A stretch of DNA of 64,000 nt, taken from contig CP092081.1 in NCBI GenBank assembly GCA_022226935.1, positions 2,530,846-2,594,845 of the forward strand. Direction: 5' to 3'. The notes under the pieces were generated by a model. The model saw nothing but the letters and a program-made list of their open reading frames with translations, ran no database searches and was not told the DNA's origin. Made by a program: the position numbers and the translations under genes. This document shows positions 1 to 41,301 of the stretch, piece by piece (position 1 is the first letter of the stretch; the number at the start of each line of letters is the position of its first letter). Origin of the DNA: Nitrospira sp. (GTDB taxonomy: Bacteria > Nitrospirota > Nitrospiria > Nitrospirales > Nitrospiraceae).

Positions 1-195
1 GCAGCCTTAGCCGCAATTGTGGCGGATAACGAACGGGCGGAACAGAGAGCCCTTACCGCATTGAAAGTGGCCGGCGATGCCTTACTTGCCAAGCCACGAT
101 CGCCGGCGGCCAAAAGGACGTATCGAGACGCACAGGCCAAACTGGCCGACGTGCGGCTATTTAACGAGCAACGAATCGAACAATTCACCAAATAA
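1..195 (+). CDS. Hypothetical protein, 3' part only (accessory element)
   Basis: An open frame enters from the left edge and stops with TAA at 193-195, giving 64 C-terminal residues. The fragment is rich in Ala, Arg, Glu and Lys, looks helical, and ends with IEQFTK. It is followed 11 bases later by the next start, with an AAAGGAG ribosome-binding site overlapping the gap, so it is the upstream member of the same short operon (1-1974). I do not recognise a family. The true start lies outside the window. Its position ahead of a terminase-like gene suggests a phage or satellite gene, by context only. Confidence 0.6.
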   Translation, partial: AALAAIVADNERAEQRALTALKVAGDALLAKPRSPAAKRTYRDAQAKLADVRLFNEQRIEQFTK

Positions 196-206
196 AGGAG
201 CTCGAC

Positions 207-782
207 ATGAAGTTGCTACCCGCGATCAAACGAAAACTTACGACATCCGATCAAGAGAGGTTAGCAAGGCTCACGGTGCAGCTTGCGGAGGCGGACGCCG
301 CGCGAGAGGCCGCATACGTGGCGATTGGAGAGGCTTCAGCCGATGAACTTTCCACAAAGAGCGCGGCGGAGAATTACGAGGCAGCGATTACACGGAGTCG
401 CGATCTGACCGCCGCAATAAAGACCGTGGAGGAGCGAATCCAGGCTGCAACTGAACGGGCACGAGTTCAAGAGATGCGACAAAAGCGCGAAGCTTTCCGT
501 GAGACGTTGGCGGTTGTTCAAGAAAAGGCGCAAGTCCTGGACGCCGACTTCGAAGAACTCAACGCTCACGGGCGGGACCTTGCTAAGGCTATTGCGGAAG
601 CGGCCGCAGCGGGTCGGTCGGTAGGCGCAGACGCTGAGTCGCTTACAAACAGATTGGTTCGCGGCAAGTTGACGTTTGACGCCTACGCTAAATTTGCGAC
701 GACGTTAGCGGGCAATTTCAGTTTGCACATCACAAGGCACGGCCTGTATAGCGCTCACTTCCCGAAGCCCGATGAAATTTAA
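207..782 (+). CDS. Hypothetical coiled-coil protein of a mobile element
   Basis: A 191-residue protein with an ATG start preceded by AAAGGAG at good spacing. Residues about 15-150 are almost entirely charged and alanine-rich helix with heptad-like spacing (many Ala, Glu, Arg), typical of a coiled coil. The last 40 residues are less charged. No signal peptide or membrane segment. It sits 11 bases after the upstream partial gene and 47 bases before the next, in the operon leading to the terminase-like gene. I do not recognise a family. Short coiled-coil proteins near terminases can be scaffolds or accessory proteins, but nothing in the sequence proves that. Confidence 0.65.
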   Translation: MKLLPAIKRKLTTSDQERLARLTVQLAEADAAREAAYVAIGEASADELSTKSAAENYEAAITRSRDLTAAIKTVEERIQAATERARVQEMRQKREAFRETLAVVQEKAQVLDADFEELNAHGRDLAKAIAEAAAAGRSVGADAESLTNRLVRGKLTFDAYAKFATTLAGNFSLHITRHGLYSAHFPKPDEI

Positions 783-4930: not shown

Positions 4931-6772
4931 ATGCTTCAGCTTGAATCTGTCCATAAGCAATATTCCACGAAGGTGTTGCTCGAAGGCGCGACCGCACACC
5001 TGAGGCCCGGAGCTCGTGTCGGTCTCGTCGGCCCCAATGGCGCAGGAAAAACGACGCTCTTCCGGATGATTCTGGGCGAAGAATCTCCCGATAAAGGCAC
5101 CATCCGCAAACGCCCGCGACTCCGCGTCGGCTATCTCCCCCAGGAATTGGAAACCATCGTCGGGAAAACGGTGCTCGATGCTGCGCATCGCGACATCTAC
5201 CCGGAGCATGAAGCCGAACGTATTCTTTCGGGATTAGGCTTTACCGAAGCGGATTTCTCCCGGCCGATCGAGAACCTTTCCGGCGGATACCGCATGCGCG
5301 TCGCGCTGGCGCACCTCCTGCTGTCGAACCCCGACGTCCTCATGCTGGACGAACCGACCAATCACTTGGACAAACCGACTCAGCGGTGGTTCGAACGGTT
5401 TCTCCTCGAATCCAATCTGACGTTGCTAGTGATCAGCCACGACACGAAATTCCTCGATGGCATCGCCACGCACATCTGGGAACTCCGGGATCGCACCCTG
5501 CAGGAATATCGTGGAAACTATACGAAGTTCCAGGAACTCCGGGCGGCCCGTGATGCACAGCTCGAGGCAGCGGCGAATCGGCAGAGCAAGGAAGTGGCGC
5601 GCGTGCAGAGCTTTATCGACCGCTTCCGCTATCAAGCGAATAAAGCCAAGCAGGTGCAGTCACGCATCAAACAATTAGATAAAGTGAAACTGATCGAACG
5701 GCAGCGCGATACCAAGCGCGTGCGGTTCAAGTTTCCGCTTCCCGCCGCCAGCGGCCGGCATGTGCTTGAGCTCAAAAGCGTGGCGAAGAGTTACGGGGAG
5801 AAGGTTATTTACCGGTCCCTGGATTTCACGGTGGAACGTGGTCAGCGCATCGCGCTGGTGGGGGAAAACGGCGCGGGCAAAAGCACGCTGCTCAAAATGC
5901 TGGCTGGCGTCTTGCCGTTCGAAAAGGGATCTCGCCATGTCGGTCATGGAGTCACTCTGCACTACTTTGCCCAGCACCAGGCAGAATCCCTGAACCAGGA
6001 CGACACGATTCTGGAATCGTTGGCCGAGGTCTCGGCGCAGGCGGAAACCAATTTTCTCCGCGGCATTGCCGGAGCCTTTCTCTTCAGCGGCGACGACCAG
6101 AAAAAGCCCATCAAGGCGCTCAGCGGCGGCGAACGCAACCGCGTGGCCCTGGCTCGCATGCTGGTGGAACCGGCCAACACCCTCCTGCTCGATGAGCCGA
6201 CCAACCACCTCGATCCGGCCTCGGTGGATATGTTGACGGACGCCATGACCGACTTCCCAGGGACGATCGTGTTTATTTCCCACGATCCGACCTTCCTCGC
6301 CCGCGTCGCGACCATGATCGTTGAAGTGGATGAAGGCCAGGCCAAAACCTATTTGGGCGACTACGAGTATTTCTTGTGGAAGAAAGCGCAGGAATTCGAG
6401 TCGATCAAGGAAAGCAGCGCGGAACTCGCCGCCGCCCAGGGCGACAAATCGTCAGGACCTACGAAGGCCATGGCCTCACAGGTACAACCGAAGTCCTCCG
6501 GCGGAGAACGGCGTGACCTGAGCAAAACGCAGGCACGTCTCGAAAAACAAGTCTCGCGCGCGGAATCTGACATTGCTTCGATGGAATCCAAGGTGAAGGC
6601 AAGAGAACTGGAACTGGCGGACCCCGCGCTCTACCAGGAACTCGGCCGCTGGAGCGAGCTGCAGCGCGAGCAGGAAACCTGGAAGAAAGAACTGGAACGG
6701 CTCACGGCACGCTGGGAATCGTTGTCGGAGGAATTGCAGGAGGTACGGGAGAAACTGACGGCAGCCGGTTAG
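4931..6772 (+). CDS. ABC-F family ATPase (Uup/EttA/YheS-like)
   Basis: 613 residues with two ABC nucleotide-binding domains and no membrane segments, the layout of ABC-F ribosome-associated translation factors. Domain 1 has Walker A GPNGAGKTT, signature LSGGYRMRVALA and Walker B LMLDEPTNHLD. Domain 2 has GENGAGKST, LSGGERNRVALA and LLLDEPTNHLD. Between them is a basic helical linker (about residues 190-265) that in this family reaches the tRNA site. After domain 2 is an acidic and lysine-rich coiled coil (about 525-613) like the C-terminal domain of Uup. Likely role: resolving stalled ribosomes or related translation or DNA-repair phenotypes. The exact subfamily cannot be set by eye. Its stop overlaps the stop of the convergent PilZ gene by four bases. 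Confidence 0.92.
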   Translation: MLQLESVHKQYSTKVLLEGATAHLRPGARVGLVGPNGAGKTTLFRMILGEESPDKGTIRKRPRLRVGYLPQELETIVGKTVLDAAHRDIYPEHEAERILSGLGFTEADFSRPIENLSGGYRMRVALAHLLLSNPDVLMLDEPTNHLDKPTQRWFERFLLESNLTLLVISHDTKFLDGIATHIWELRDRTLQEYRGNYTKFQELRAARDAQLEAAANRQSKEVARVQSFIDRFRYQANKAKQVQSRIKQLDKVKLIERQRDTKRVRFKFPLPAASGRHVLELKSVAKSYGEKVIYRSLDFTVERGQRIALVGENGAGKSTLLKMLAGVLPFEKGSRHVGHGVTLHYFAQHQAESLNQDDTILESLAEVSAQAETNFLRGIAGAFLFSGDDQKKPIKALSGGERNRVALARMLVEPANTLLLDEPTNHLDPASVDMLTDAMTDFPGTIVFISHDPTFLARVATMIVEVDEGQAKTYLGDYEYFLWKKAQEFESIKESSAELAAAQGDKSSGPTKAMASQVQPKSSGGERRDLSKTQARLEKQVSRAESDIASMESKVKARELELADPALYQELGRWSELQREQETWKKELERLTARWESLSEELQEVREKLTAAG

Positions 6773-35840: not shown

Positions 35841-36005
35841 CTGTGCGCAGAATAGCGCATCCGGGAAGCCGAAGGCAATGAGATGTACTGCAAGTCAATG
35901 TGTGGAGGGCCCAGTCGTTGCACGGATGGCAATTTACCCGGCAGCCCGTTACACTACGCCGCGATACTTAGTCCATGTTATGCGCGTAAGCAGAAAGGAG
36001 AACCC

Positions 36006-36368
36006 ATGTCTCAGACGATGTCCCGCCAGCCACGCCCGCTCGTACGAACAACCATGTTCGTGTTGCTCCTTGTGCTCGGAAGCCAAACCACGCTCTCGGT
36101 GAGAACGGCTTCGGCGGCCGGTTCCGGATCGGAAGCCATTCAAGGCCTGGGAAGTTACTTTCTGACCTTACCCTATGGCGGAATCAAGATGGCCGTCGCC
36201 GTACTCGGAGCCGTTGCGGGAGGAATGGGGTTCATTTTTACCGGTGGAGACAAGGCCACCGCCGACAAAATCTGGGGCCCTGCTATAGGCGGGGAATATG
36301 TCGTGACACCGCAACATCTCAGAGGCGAGAAAGACCTTCATTTCTTCGGTAACCCGCCTGCCAAATAG
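36006..36368 (+). CDS. Small exported protein, unknown
   Basis: 120 residues. ATG 36006 has AAAGGAG well placed; the frame is open to 35883 without a ribosome-binding site. A signal peptide (RTTMFVLLLVLGSQTTLSV, probable cleavage after ASA) is followed by a glycine-rich helix (IKMAVAVLGAVAGGMGFIF) and a short soluble end DLHFFGNPPAK. It may be a periplasmic or membrane-inserted component. No homologue recognised and no operon partner: 247 bases upstream of it lie without a real gene on this strand. Confidence 0.65.
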   Translation: MSQTMSRQPRPLVRTTMFVLLLVLGSQTTLSVRTASAAGSGSEAIQGLGSYFLTLPYGGIKMAVAVLGAVAGGMGFIFTGGDKATADKIWGPAIGGEYVVTPQHLRGEKDLHFFGNPPAK

Positions 36369-36650: not shown

Positions 36651-37085
36651 ATGGGAGAATTTAAATCGGGCTTTTTCATGAGTGAAACCGCCTGCAATGG
36701 CCGCGTGCTGGTCGTGGATGACGAACCTGACATTCGCAAAGTCGTCCGCATGACGCTGCAGAAAGCCGGCTACGAGGTCATCGAAGCGGAAAACGGAGAG
36801 AAAGCCATAGAAGCGATCAACACCGGAGAAAACCGGCTGCTACTGGACGTCCTCATTTGTGATATCCGCATGCCGAAGATCAACGGAGTTGAGGCCATTG
36901 CCTATTTCCAGCAGGAATGGCCACGCGTCCCGATTATCGTGCTGACGGGATTTCCCGACACTGACATGGCCACCTCCTTCCTCCGTAGTGGCGTCGTTGA
37001 TTACCTGGTGAAACCGGTGGAGGGGGAAAAACTTCGCACTGCTGTGGCCAGGGCTATGGAGCAACGGGAGCTCGCCCAACTTTAG
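36651..37085 (+). CDS. Single-domain response regulator
   Basis: 144 residues, only a receiver domain: acidic pair in VLVVDDEPDIRK, phospho-acceptor Asp71 in LICDIRMPKI, conserved Thr in IIVLTGFPD and Lys in YLVKPVEG. AAGGAGGGGATC precedes the ATG. Such CheY-like stand-alone receivers relay phosphate to a downstream partner. It is the first gene of a run with two histidine kinases and a heme protein and is the natural target or phosphate sink of those kinases. No output domain is attached. Confidence 0.93.
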   Translation: MGEFKSGFFMSETACNGRVLVVDDEPDIRKVVRMTLQKAGYEVIEAENGEKAIEAINTGENRLLLDVLICDIRMPKINGVEAIAYFQQEWPRVPIIVLTGFPDTDMATSFLRSGVVDYLVKPVEGEKLRTAVARAMEQRELAQL

Positions 37086-37199
37086 CAAGGGCCCCTGCCG
37101 CATCGGTCTTCAGAACTCGCCGTCGGGAAGAGGTGATCACCTCCCCGACGGCGACGCCCTGCACCACAGGGGTTTTTGTCACTCCACCCGGAGCCAGGC

Positions 37200-38249
37200 A
37201 TGACATCCACCAGCACAAAGATTGCCATCATCGGCGCAGGACGAGGCGGCACGGCGCTGCTGGACCTCCTGCATCAGATTCCCGATGTAGATATCGTGGG
37301 CATCGCGGACAAGGACCCCGCCGCACCCGGGCTCCAACGTGCGAAGGATTTGAATGTGCCGGTTGAGGACCAAGTGTACGACCTCATCCGCAACCATGGC
37401 GTCAATCTCATCATGGACGTGACCGGTGATCCATCCATGGCCCCATTCATCCAAGCGATGAAACGTCCCGGGGCGGAAGTCTTGAGCGGAGCCACCACAC
37501 GGCTGTTATGGAAACTCGTCCAGCACCAATCGAAACTGGAAGCCGAACTGTTCCAGGCCGATAAACTGGCCGGATTAGGCTCCTTTGCGGCAGGTATCGC
37601 GCATGACATCAATAACCCGCTACAGCTCATCCTTGGCCTTGCGGAAAATCTCACGGACGAGCAAGATTTGGCCGTCGTTCATGAACAGGCGCGCGACATC
37701 ACCGAGGCGGTGAAACGCACCAGCGCCATTTGCCGCGACCTCACCCGGTATGCACGGCGCAACGCGACGGGAGAGGACATCATGGTCAATCTCAACACCA
37801 AATTGGACGAGGCGCTGAGAATCGCCCGCTATGCCGTGACGCTGCAGGATGTCACCGTCGTGAAACGATATGCGGAAGACGCCTCTGTGCTAGGGAACCC
37901 TGACGAATTGCTCCATGTTTTCGTCAATTTGATTACGAATGCCGTTCAAGCCATTCAGGATCGCGGCACATTAACCCTGCAGACGACCGTCAGCCCCGAC
38001 GGCCAGGTCAGTGCGTCGGTGAGTGATACGGGATGTGGGATTCCGAAAGAGGCGTTCTCGAAAATCTTTGAGCCCCTGTACACCACAAAACCCCCGGGGA
38101 AAGGCACGGGGCTCGGCCTGTACAATGTGATGTCGGTGATTTCGAAAATGGAAGGACATATTTGCGTCGAAAGCGACCTCGGTGTCGGCACGACCTTCCG
38201 GATCGAATTTCCACAGGTGCAACCGACTACATCATGCGCGCCCCTATGA
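37200..38249 (+). CDS. Histidine kinase with N-terminal nucleotide-binding Rossmann domain
   Basis: 349 residues from the ATG with GGAG nearby. The first 100 residues are a Rossmann fold: KIAIIGAGRGGTALL (G12xG14xxG17), a second strand DVDIVGIADKDP ending in an acidic residue (NAD preference expected), then HGVNLIMDVTGDPSM. Directly after comes a HisKA domain with His135 in AGIAHDINNPLQ, and an HATPase domain (FVNLITNAVQAIQD, DTGCGIPKEAF, GKGTGLGLYNV). There is no membrane segment. It looks like a soluble kinase that reads a dinucleotide or redox state. Its stop overlaps the next start (ATGA). Confidence 0.85.
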   Translation: MTSTSTKIAIIGAGRGGTALLDLLHQIPDVDIVGIADKDPAAPGLQRAKDLNVPVEDQVYDLIRNHGVNLIMDVTGDPSMAPFIQAMKRPGAEVLSGATTRLLWKLVQHQSKLEAELFQADKLAGLGSFAAGIAHDINNPLQLILGLAENLTDEQDLAVVHEQARDITEAVKRTSAICRDLTRYARRNATGEDIMVNLNTKLDEALRIARYAVTLQDVTVVKRYAEDASVLGNPDELLHVFVNLITNAVQAIQDRGTLTLQTTVSPDGQVSASVSDTGCGIPKEAFSKIFEPLYTTKPPGKGTGLGLYNVMSVISKMEGHICVESDLGVGTTFRIEFPQVQPTTSCAPL

Positions 38250-40723
38250 GGATCACCTGGCGCCCCTTCTCCAATCCGCTGGGATGGGGACTGAAACGTA
38301 AGCTCATCGTCTCGATGCTGCTGGTCGGCGTGGTTCCTCTACTACTCGGCCTCGGCATGGCCTTCCTCCAAGGCTCCAAAGAGATCCAAGTCGTGAGCGG
38401 CGAGAGTTTCCAGGCCTTGGCCACGGAAGCCGCCCGCAAATTGGACTTGCTCGTCGCGGAGGAAGTCGCCAGAACGTCCCGCATTGCGACACATCCGGAC
38501 ATCATCCGTCAGTTGGAGCACCATCGAGATCTGCTGCAGACTGCCGACAAGACGCTGTCCGCGGCGACGTTGACTCAACAACGAACGCGGTGGGCCGCGC
38601 GAGATCCAGTGGCGATCAAGGCGATCACGGAAAATCGCACTGCGCTCATGCTGCGAGGCTTCTACGCAGGGGCCCAAAATGAGTCGGACTTATTGTTGCC
38701 TCAGGTCGTCCGGGCTGCCACCAAGAAACTCTTCATCACGGACGTGCAGGGCAATCTTTTTGCCGCCCTGACCACGACTCCCAGTTTTTCGCATTCGGAG
38801 AGTCCCTGGTGGACGGGCGCCTACAATAAAGGGGTCGGGCAGCTGTACATTGAGGACCTGCACTTTGATAACCAGGCCAATGCGTACGTGTTCAGCATCT
38901 CCCTCCCGATCATGGATAGTCTTCGCTACGAAGTGGTCGGGGTCCTGCATCGAGTCATCGATGCCAAGGAGTTCTTTTCTCCGTCCACTCACCCCATCCG
39001 GTTCGGCCGCACCGGCCATGTGATGTTGATCGACAGCCGAGGAATCGTCCTGAGCTGCCCCATCCTTCCGACGGGGGTCCAACTGTCGGACCCGTCTCTG
39101 ATTCCCGAGGTGACGAGGCCCCAGCCGGGCTGGGTCACTGCCGATAGCGACGGGCACGGCGGGCAAGGCACCGCCATCATCGGATTCGCGCTGCTTCCCG
39201 AAACCAGTCGCGCGACGAACGGCTCCCTGGAAAATGGCGCCTGGCATACCTTCGTGTGGCAGTCTTCCGACGAACTGTTCGCACCGATCCATCACTTGAT
39301 GACGTGGATGATGATCCTGGCGTTGGTCGCGCTCTTCCTGCTCGCGACGCTGGGGTATTTTGCCGCCAGCCGGATCGTCACGCCGGTCCGCCGGTTGCAG
39401 GAGGCGGCACGCCTCATCGGCCGCGGAGAATTGCAGGAGCCGCTACACATTCACACGGGTGATGAACTGGAAGATCTGGCGGTCGAATTCAACCGCATGC
39501 ACAAGCAGCTGCAAGCCTCCTTTGCCGGATTGAATACGCAGGTCGAAGAAAAAACGCAGGAAGTGCAGTATCTCCAGAAAGCGACCGACCAGGTGCTTGA
39601 TGCCGTCCCCACGCCGATCATCATGGTGGATCAGCAAGGCCTGATCCAATACATGAACAAGGCATCGCGCGAAACCGTGCAGACAGATAACTGGTCGTCC
39701 CGTCCACTGTTCGACCTGTTGCCCATTGACGAGGAGCACCGCCAGGCGCTGCGTCGAGACCTGAGATTGGTGGAAGAGGGCATGTCCCTTACACCGCCTC
39801 GCCACGACCACGAACCGTTGTCCAAACCGGCGCGCGATCCGCTCAATCAGACCCTCGGTCCCGCCGCGTCCTCATCCCGCCGCGAGCTCCGTATCGGATC
39901 TCATCTGTACCAGTACGAATGGTTTCCGCTGGAAAGCCGGAGCGGCGCAGGGAAGCGATTCGGCCTCGTGCTCCGGGACACCACGGATGAGAGCCGCTTG
40001 CAGGATCAGCTGATTCAGGCTGAAAAATCTGGCAGTCTCGACGTGCTGACCGCCGGCATCGGCCACGAACTTAATAATCCCTTATTCGGGATTCTCGGCC
40101 TTGGCGAAGCCATTCAGGAAGAAGGCGATCTGGTACGCGCCAAAGGCTACGCGCAGGACATCATCGGTCATGGACGAAAGATGGCGGCCATCATACGGGA
40201 TTTCACCGGCGTGGCGACGCGCGAATCGAAGAGCCAACGGATAGCCGTCGATGTGACGGCGCAACTGGAACAAGCGCTGGCCATTGTGCAGACATCACAC
40301 GAGTGCCTGGGCCTCAACGTGCAAAAACACTATGTGCCTGTGTCCTCCGTGACGGCACTTCCCGACCAGGTTCGGCTGGCCTTCATCAATGTTCTCACCA
40401 ATGCGATTCAGGCGATGAACGGGCAGGGCAACTTATGGTTGACCACGGAGGAGCAGGACGACGTGATTACGATCAAGATCAGAGACAATGGACCCGGCAT
40501 TCCCAAGCAGCATCTCGCCAAAGTCTTCGATCCGTTTTATACGACCAAGGGGCAGGGAGAAGGATCCGGCTTGGGGCTCACCGTCGCGCAACGCTTGATC
40601 AAGAAATTCGGCGGCGAAATCCGGATGGAAAGTCCTCCGGACGGTCAGGGCACCACCTGCGTCATTACACTGCCGGCGGATAAGGCTGCGGTACGAAAGG
40701 AGGAGCCATGCGTCTCATCCTGA
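38246..40723 (+). CDS. Cache-HAMP-PAS sensor histidine kinase
   Basis: 825 residues. TM helix 19-42, a periplasmic Cache-type domain (about 45-345) with KLFITDVQGNLFAALTTTP and GHVMLIDSRGIVLSC, second TM 353-372, HAMP (373-425), coiled coil, PAS-like domain (about 448-590, PTPIIMVDQQGLIQYMN), HisKA with His607 in AGIGHELNNPLFG, and an HATPase. The ATG at 38246 forms an ATGA overlap with the previous gene, which fixes the start; longer starts in the same frame are not needed. It has no receiver, so it probably phosphorylates the receiver at 36651. The next gene overlaps by 16 bases. Confidence 0.92.
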   Translation: MRITWRPFSNPLGWGLKRKLIVSMLLVGVVPLLLGLGMAFLQGSKEIQVVSGESFQALATEAARKLDLLVAEEVARTSRIATHPDIIRQLEHHRDLLQTADKTLSAATLTQQRTRWAARDPVAIKAITENRTALMLRGFYAGAQNESDLLLPQVVRAATKKLFITDVQGNLFAALTTTPSFSHSESPWWTGAYNKGVGQLYIEDLHFDNQANAYVFSISLPIMDSLRYEVVGVLHRVIDAKEFFSPSTHPIRFGRTGHVMLIDSRGIVLSCPILPTGVQLSDPSLIPEVTRPQPGWVTADSDGHGGQGTAIIGFALLPETSRATNGSLENGAWHTFVWQSSDELFAPIHHLMTWMMILALVALFLLATLGYFAASRIVTPVRRLQEAARLIGRGELQEPLHIHTGDELEDLAVEFNRMHKQLQASFAGLNTQVEEKTQEVQYLQKATDQVLDAVPTPIIMVDQQGLIQYMNKASRETVQTDNWSSRPLFDLLPIDEEHRQALRRDLRLVEEGMSLTPPRHDHEPLSKPARDPLNQTLGPAASSSRRELRIGSHLYQYEWFPLESRSGAGKRFGLVLRDTTDESRLQDQLIQAEKSGSLDVLTAGIGHELNNPLFGILGLGEAIQEEGDLVRAKGYAQDIIGHGRKMAAIIRDFTGVATRESKSQRIAVDVTAQLEQALAIVQTSHECLGLNVQKHYVPVSSVTALPDQVRLAFINVLTNAIQAMNGQGNLWLTTEEQDDVITIKIRDNGPGIPKQHLAKVFDPFYTTKGQGEGSGLGLTVAQRLIKKFGGEIRMESPPDGQGTTCVITLPADKAAVRKEEPCVSS

Positions 40724-41301
40724 CACTCTTCCGATCACCAATCTTGTGGTCGACGCTGCTTCTGGCCTGTGTCTCCGCCTCTTCATTGCAGGCGAAGGAT
40801 CTCACGCCGCCGGCAGGCATCTCTCCGGAGAGGGTCGCGGACTTCGTCCATGCCGTGCTCGATGCCGACCGGACGATTTATACCAACCAGGTCGTCAACC
40901 GCATGCAGGCGAAAGGCATCGTCTCCGCCGCCGAACATTGGGAGCATGAAAACGCCCTGCCGCTGCCCGCACAATTTCTCCAACATTCGGGCAAGCTGGT
41001 CGCGGAGTCCGGACGCGGGATCCGCTACCGCCTCATCAGCCTCTGGCCGATTTATCAGCGCAATGCGCCGGCGACGGAATTGGAGCGCCGGGCGCTGGAA
41101 AGTTTCGCGCAGACGCCGGATCGTCCCTTCACCGGCATTGTGACCAGCGGCCGCAAACAATTCTTTCAAGCCGTGTATTCGGATCGCGCGATTTCCGCCG
41201 CCTGCGTCAAATGCCACAATAGTCATCCCTTGAGCCCGAAGCGAGACTTCGCCCTCAATGATGTAATGGGGGGGATGACGATCACAATTCCGCTCGACTG
41301 A
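40708..41301 (+). CDS. Tll0287-like (DUF3365) c-type heme sensor protein
   Basis: 197 residues with a signal peptide (SPILWSTLLLACVSASSLQA) and one heme c motif CVKCH near residue 166, followed by NSHPLSPKRDF. The domain is that of Tll0287-like proteins, which bind heme in the periplasm and are proposed gas or redox sensors. AAAGGAGG lies inside the end of the kinase gene, ten bases upstream of the ATG. Last gene of the signalling operon; it could feed information to the Cache domain kinase by direct contact. Confidence 0.88.
   Translation: MRLILTLFRSPILWSTLLLACVSASSLQAKDLTPPAGISPERVADFVHAVLDADRTIYTNQVVNRMQAKGIVSAAEHWEHENALPLPAQFLQHSGKLVAESGRGIRYRLISLWPIYQRNAPATELERRALESFAQTPDRPFTGIVTSGRKQFFQAVYSDRAISAACVKCHNSHPLSPKRDFALNDVMGGMTITIPLD

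Follow-up and report, generated by a model that had tools for sequence, protein, structure and literature searches.

A conserved Nitrospirales gene cluster in which a Rossmann-domain kinase and a Cache kinase with a candidate c-heme partner may share one lone receiver

Nitrospira are key nitrifiers, and tractable regulators in these bacteria are few. Four genes at positions 36651-41301 of a 64-kb Nitrospira stretch (hereafter the window, i.e. the whole stretch of DNA that was analysed) raise the question whether a lone receiver, two histidine kinases and an exported heme protein constitute one signalling module and, if so, which signals it might integrate. The initial annotation had described them as a coupled four-gene redox signalling operon; its four genes and their domain assignments were all verified from the ORF positions and Pfam, and the features referred to below are as follows.

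36651..37085, + strand, lone receiver (REC), 144 aa (PF00072)
37122..37149, + strand, conserved 11-bp RNA hairpin in the receiver-kinase intergenic region (RNAalifold covariation)
37157..37176, + strand, terminator-like stem with T run, window genome only (consensus scan)
37200..38249, + strand, RossHK, soluble histidine kinase, 349 aa (Pfam, AF2 model, fold comparison)
37212..37514, + strand, Rossmann-type sensor domain of RossHK (profile matches in PDB)
38234..40723, + strand, CacheHK, membrane histidine kinase, 829 aa, alternative start 38246 (Pfam, hydrophobic segments)
40708..41301, + strand, stand-alone sCache_heme protein (DUF3365/Tll0287), 197 aa, signal peptide (PF11845)
41203..41217, + strand, CVKCH c-heme attachment motif, aa 166-170 (sequence; invariant in 51 orthologues)

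The cluster order is thus lone receiver, RossHK, CacheHK and c-heme protein (DUF3365/Tll0287, currently named sCache_heme), and the cluster is also present in Candidatus Nitrospira defluvii (FP929003.1), where the Rossmann domain is 82% identical. The RossHK and CacheHK genes overlap by 16 bases if the latter starts at the ATG at 38234, or by 4 (ATGA) if it starts at 38246, and the CacheHK and DUF3365 genes overlap by 16 bases. Among 24 same-genus loci, all with intact gene order and overlaps, the second junction is -16 in 24/24 and the first is either -16 or -4. The receiver gene, however, lies about 107-161 nt upstream of the RossHK gene within the genus, so that the coupling proposed earlier holds for the two kinase genes and the heme gene and not for the receiver.

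The receiver-RossHK gap contains the 11-bp hairpin, which is conserved in 20 species with compensatory change at 4 pairs (RNAalifold); its covariation was 0.239 compared with 0.115 after shuffling (0/500 shuffles), and it was also above all slid versions. The terminator-like stem at 37157..37176 did not score above the shuffled background in the consensus scan, and the T run that follows the hairpin in the window genome is absent from other species. We infer that transcripts are processed or partly terminated at the hairpin, allowing receiver levels to differ from those of the kinases. Since this conserved element parts the receiver from the kinase genes, a single four-gene operon is not proven: the conserved gene set stands, while its transcription layout may actually be 1+3.

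Co-occurrence of the four genes had been put forward as a check, and they are kept together in the same order in 51/51 named loci with enough contig, which rules out non-conservation. Specifically, receiver, RossHK and CacheHK are found in 61/61 named HisKA-type loci, with the c-heme gene present in all 51 for which enough contig was available. A RossHK orthologue was identified in 28/29 same-genus genomes and none was seen in the remaining one (G024; 89% complete, about 410 contigs). The four-gene order is the same in the family genera g2, g3, g6, g10, g13, g15, g17 and g21. The four genes also occur together in another family of the order, with none of the tested flanking genes nearby (L174, L176, L179, L180), and one genome carries two complete copies of the cluster (L296, L297). 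Mere local synteny was rejected because the unit persists beside different flanking genes and has been duplicated as a unit; chance ORFs were rejected because protein identity is kept across genus (86-99%), family (61-84%) and order (49-72%).

Smaller layouts were found further out, i.e. receiver-RossHK-CacheHK (L175, L177) and receiver-RossHK (L178, L181), and one genome has a CacheHK relative and no identified RossHK (L295). These layouts read as stepwise growth of the cluster, and loss fits equally. That RossHK can accompany a receiver without CacheHK, and a CacheHK relative can occur without RossHK, indicates that the halves can work separately. Moreover, at E 1e-40 or better TIGR03478 (NxrB-type) had no match in the window genome or in G030, G033 and G327, each of which has the module or the kinase belonging to it; matches did occur in genomes in which the four-gene unit was not found, namely those of g23 and small ones, G034 and G074 among them. 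These distributions disagree and give no simple link between the module and nitrite oxidation.

The receiver (PF00072, E 1e-29) is a single REC domain without an output domain and with an intact active site (acid pair D23/D24, phospho-acceptor D71, T99, Y118 and K121). An alternative start at 36678 was rejected, since the ATG at 36651 has an AAGGAGG site genus-wide and the MGEFKSGFF codons vary at the wobble position only. With 96-100% identity in the genus, and values of 98.6/84/72% for genus, family and order, the receiver is by far the best conserved of the four proteins. LovR, together with LovK, is a phosphate sink (PMC5964349), and with this precedent the receiver, instead of integrating signals as a hub, might drain phosphate from the kinases or restrain them by feedback; the missing output domain and the hairpin, which may mean separate expression, are compatible with such a role. 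We regard it as distinctly improbable, because the degree of conservation at all three ranks suggests several constrained interfaces and no other linked receiver is there for it to drain.

RossHK comprises a Rossmann half-domain (about aa 5-105, with GAGRGG and the invariant D37), HisKA (H135, HDINNPL) and HATPase_c. HisKA and HATPase_c score far above the Pfam cut-offs and a fold search with the full AF2 model returned a match list filled by kinase cores (Z about 22 for the HK core against PDB kinases). Pfam matched the Rossmann half below threshold (DapB_N, 23.3 bits vs the cut-off 25.6), and a homologue passes (GFO_IDH_MocA, 26.2 vs 24). The AF2 model has an N-terminal beta-alpha-beta fold (pLDDT 84-94 over aa 11-90), and among PDB entries the Rossmann profile matched an acetaldehyde dehydrogenase that is NAD-dependent (E 8e-5) and, less strongly, Rex (E 1e-3). 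As the catalytic half is absent, we read the domain as a sensor. A Rossmann-type sensor is present in 104/169 sampled Nitrospirota genera; it is also found in a second, HisKA_3-type kinase adjoining a LuxR-type regulator gene, and it recurs in large hybrid kinases of other phylum members.

Which ligand might this sensor read? By the rules known from dehydrogenases an acidic residue after beta2 favours NAD over NADP, and NAD rather than NADP is accordingly the ligand predicted from the invariant Asp that closes beta2 in RossHK. Pfam matches that are weak and divided among DapB_N, GFO_IDH_MocA, CoA_binding and NAD_binding_3 would also suit a domain whose ligand is something else, be it CoA, a different nucleotide or an acyl compound, or one that is a degenerate protein-interaction module; this appears somewhat unlikely, given that RossHK homologues show no or almost no variation at the GxGxxG glycines and at the acidic position following beta2, and that NAD-dependent enzymes and Rex, a sensor of NADH, head the PDB profile matches.

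CacheHK has two hydrophobic segments and the Pfam domains dCache_1, HAMP, PAS, HisKA and HATPase_c, arranged as a transmembrane segment (24-42), periplasmic dCache, a second transmembrane segment (355-373), HAMP, PAS, HisKA and HATPase_c. Both kinases have H-boxes (HDINN and HELNN) and complete ATP-binding boxes (N, G1, F and G2 motifs), and the catalytic key positions are invariant in RossHK homologues. A tree built from 21 kinase cores of the window genome places RossHK, CacheHK and an orphan kinase (G000:C1:2108252) in one clade (support 100/99). The DHp regions of RossHK and CacheHK match at 25/60 positions, topped only by the orphan kinase within the clade, with the others at 20/60 or less. 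Paralogous kinases often retain a common partner, and it is plausible, judging from these sequences, that one receiver is common to RossHK and CacheHK.

The other possibility is that RossHK is the sole partner of the receiver, with CacheHK and the heme protein forming a separate sensor for another regulator, or acting as a phosphatase only, clustered for co-expression. The DHp residues directly after the phospho-His indeed differ between RossHK and CacheHK, receiver-RossHK pairs occur without CacheHK (see above), and the fusion proteins described below unite the receiver with the Rossmann sensor only. We nevertheless consider a RossHK-only partnership quite unlikely, because the two kinase cores are close paralogues, their genes overlap and co-occur in all 61 named loci, and the window contains no further receiver linked to the cluster.

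Receiver-Rossmann fusions were identified in 17/236 genomes of the order (8/37 genera). These proteins (about 264-271 aa) consist of receiver beta1-beta4, the Rossmann domain plus a helix, and receiver beta5-alpha5, i.e. the RossHK sensor is inserted between receiver beta4 and alpha4 and ends just before the position of the RossHK H-box. An assembly error was rejected, since one copy is on a single-chromosome MAG (L245/L265) and the fusion is common to many genomes. The AF2 model (mean pLDDT 75) has outer segments that rebuild a complete REC domain (Z 19.0, rmsd 1.9, 123 residues aligned over 16..263). Fusion-carrying genomes of g23, g20 and g16 are without a close CacheHK (best 29-31%). The fusion is the strongest independent sign of a common pathway for the receiver and the Rossmann sensor and, together with the close paralogy of the kinase cores, it strengthens the reading of the genes as one set.

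The product of the fourth gene matches PF11845 at 69.8 bits (cut-off 24.1). Its only hydrophobic segment is N-terminal and signal-peptide-like, it is not fused to a TM/HAMP signalling module, and apart from one CVKCH the mature part is Cys-free. The CxxCH is kept in 51/51 orthologues, and an extra Cys after residue 30 is found in 0/51. A PDB search with the single sequence gave no match, and the profile reached 5B82 (E 5e-12) with the N-terminal part outside the alignment; the axial-ligand test is therefore based on the Cys counts. DUF3365 was redefined as sCache_heme in 2026 and, of the members described, a signalling-associated one releases NO slowly, the NO-sensor type being fused to a signalling module, and a stand-alone one with an axial Cys (Cys/His heme ligation) resembles a redox protein (PMC12889525). 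The present protein, stand-alone and yet with 0/51 axial Cys, falls outside both described classes. From its sequence we would expect the sixth ligand to be exchangeable or non-Cys, in which case NO binding or a redox change could be reported to CacheHK. Besides this protein, the window genome encodes seven with a DUF3365 domain in different contexts; among these seven, one lies beside an aminotransferase gene and one is part of a chemotaxis receptor (L073).

Redox roles, as opposed to signalling, have been assigned to stand-alone members of the family (PMC12889525), and the protein might accordingly be a periplasmic electron carrier or NO scavenger that is co-expressed with CacheHK without being its sensor subunit; the varied contexts of the seven other proteins, including the one beside the aminotransferase gene, fit this. 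Against it, all 51 orthologues lack the Cys that makes Cys/His ligation stable in the redox type as characterised, the heme gene overlaps the CacheHK gene genus-wide, and the heme protein is better conserved (89/65/56% in genus, family and order) than the overlapping kinase (about 87/62/49% for the kinases). A carrier or scavenger thus seems unlikely to us, and we favour an accessory sensor.

Taken together, we find it rather probable that the four genes represent one signalling module in which two related kinases with different inputs converge on a lone receiver. This draws on the observed anatomy, co-conservation, kinase-core ancestry, motifs and fusion proteins; the ligands, the phosphotransfer, the contact between the heme protein and CacheHK, and the output are what we infer. 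RossHK would read a cytosolic dinucleotide, probably NAD(H), via its N-terminal Rossmann domain, and CacheHK would read the periplasm through dCache with the secreted c-heme sCache protein as accessory sensor; with no Cys ligand of the kind found in redox-type members, the heme of that protein would report on NO or on the redox state. Both kinases would phosphorylate the receiver, which might pass the phosphate on to an HPt protein or signal by protein contact, as MrrA or Spo0F; the window genome has several stand-alone-sized HPt frames, none of them tied to the cluster. A more specific version is offered tentatively and, on balance, with more doubt than confidence: an NAD(H)-reading Rossmann domain would control a lone receiver in two ways, through RossHK sharing the receiver with the heme-assisted CacheHK and, elsewhere, by insertion at the beta4-alpha4 switch, so that the reducing power of the cytosol and the NO or redox state of the periplasm would be integrated on one receiver.

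If true, Nitrospira-type bacteria would have a direct, order-wide and testable route for keeping cytosolic NAD(H) in balance with the supply of electrons in the periplasm. It would add the Rossmann domain as an input of histidine kinases, as well as a whole domain inserted at the receiver switch, and it would widen the 2026 view of the sCache_heme family by tying one of its stand-alone c-heme proteins to a particular kinase.

How, then, does the cluster compare with known systems? The initial annotation knew of no described system with this composition, and our searches of the open-access literature found no paper on the combination, nor any that describes this cluster, Rossmann-HisKA kinases or Rossmann-inserted receivers. 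The parts are of known kinds, and what we have not found described in that literature is the combination, the Rossmann-HisKA input and the Rossmann-inserted receiver. As in Rex, which carries a winged-helix DNA-binding domain, a Rossmann domain with GxGxxG is the candidate NAD(H) sensor in regulation; unlike in Rex, this half-domain comes joined to a histidine kinase or set inside a receiver, and RossHK begins with the Rossmann domain itself, with no N-terminal winged-helix DNA-binding domain. In TorS-TorT a periplasmic partner, the binding protein TorT, which is without heme, hands the signal to a membrane kinase; CacheHK likewise has a candidate periplasmic partner, which unlike TorT carries a c-heme. 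MrrA of Caulobacter, which has at least six kinases as phosphate donors and in turn supplies LovK and PhyK, is similarly a lone receiver without an output domain that takes phosphate from kinases of differing sensory type (PMC5964349), whereas here two kinases, the candidate donors, and a heme protein are encoded beside the receiver. Another single-domain receiver tied to redox binds an Fe-S cluster and feeds back on its two-component system (PMC7078487); there the cofactor is inside the receiver, while here the redox input would come via the kinases, or via the Rossmann domain inserted in the receivers of other genera. Finally, the novelty of the heme part is weakened by the 2026 characterisation of the sCache_heme family, with which our protein shares the PF11845 domain, the invariant CxxCH, export and a stand-alone state (PMC12889525; PDB 5B82); it differs from the redox type in the absence of the axial Cys, and from the NO-sensor type in being unfused and genetically coupled to a separate Cache kinase.

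The core of an orphan PAS-type kinase encoded elsewhere in the same genome groups with the cores of the two kinases of the four-gene unit, the soluble Rossmann-HisKA kinase and the membrane-bound Cache kinase (support 100/99), and it is possible that this protein constitutes a third input to the receiver of the unit.

Orphan PAS-type kinase: G000:C1 around 2108252 (genome carrying the window); L332:5741-7597, minus strand

A second Rossmann kinase, of the HisKA_3 type, is paired with a LuxR-type regulator; this pair is common across the family and adjoins nrdR in the window genome.

HisKA_3-type Rossmann kinase and LuxR-type regulator: L059:6090-7253 and 5429-6100, minus strand; further loci L060-L063 and L124-L130

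The Rossmann domain also occurs inserted into a receiver, between beta4 and alpha4/beta5, in 17 of the 236 Nitrospirales genomes (8 genera).

Receiver-Rossmann fusion: L245:5683-6477, plus strand
Receiver-Rossmann fusion: L265:1501-2292, minus strand
Further fusions: L266-L282

The Rossmann sensor domain is further present in a Rokubacteria MAG (L258, QHSC01000080.1; 47% identity) and in a hybrid kinase from another family within the same phylum.

Hybrid kinase, 1142 aa: L183:4277-7705, plus strand; Rossmann domain in front, with GAF, PAS, receivers and GGDEF

A gene for a protein matching no Pfam family lies directly 5' of the receiver gene; most members of the genus conserve it at this place, several species do not. 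A paralogue of the stand-alone DUF3365 protein overlaps a class-V aminotransferase gene by 4 bases rather than a kinase gene.

161-aa protein: window 35883-36368, plus strand
Stand-alone DUF3365 paralogue, 44% identical: L074:4883-5485, plus strand

Finally, the host may not be a nitrite oxidiser, or the part of the genome that encodes NxrB may be missing from the sequence searched. A PF13247 search of its genome returned a single weak and short match, and no NxrB-type subunit was found in the whole genome (TIGR03478, E<=1e-40), compared with two in N. defluvii.
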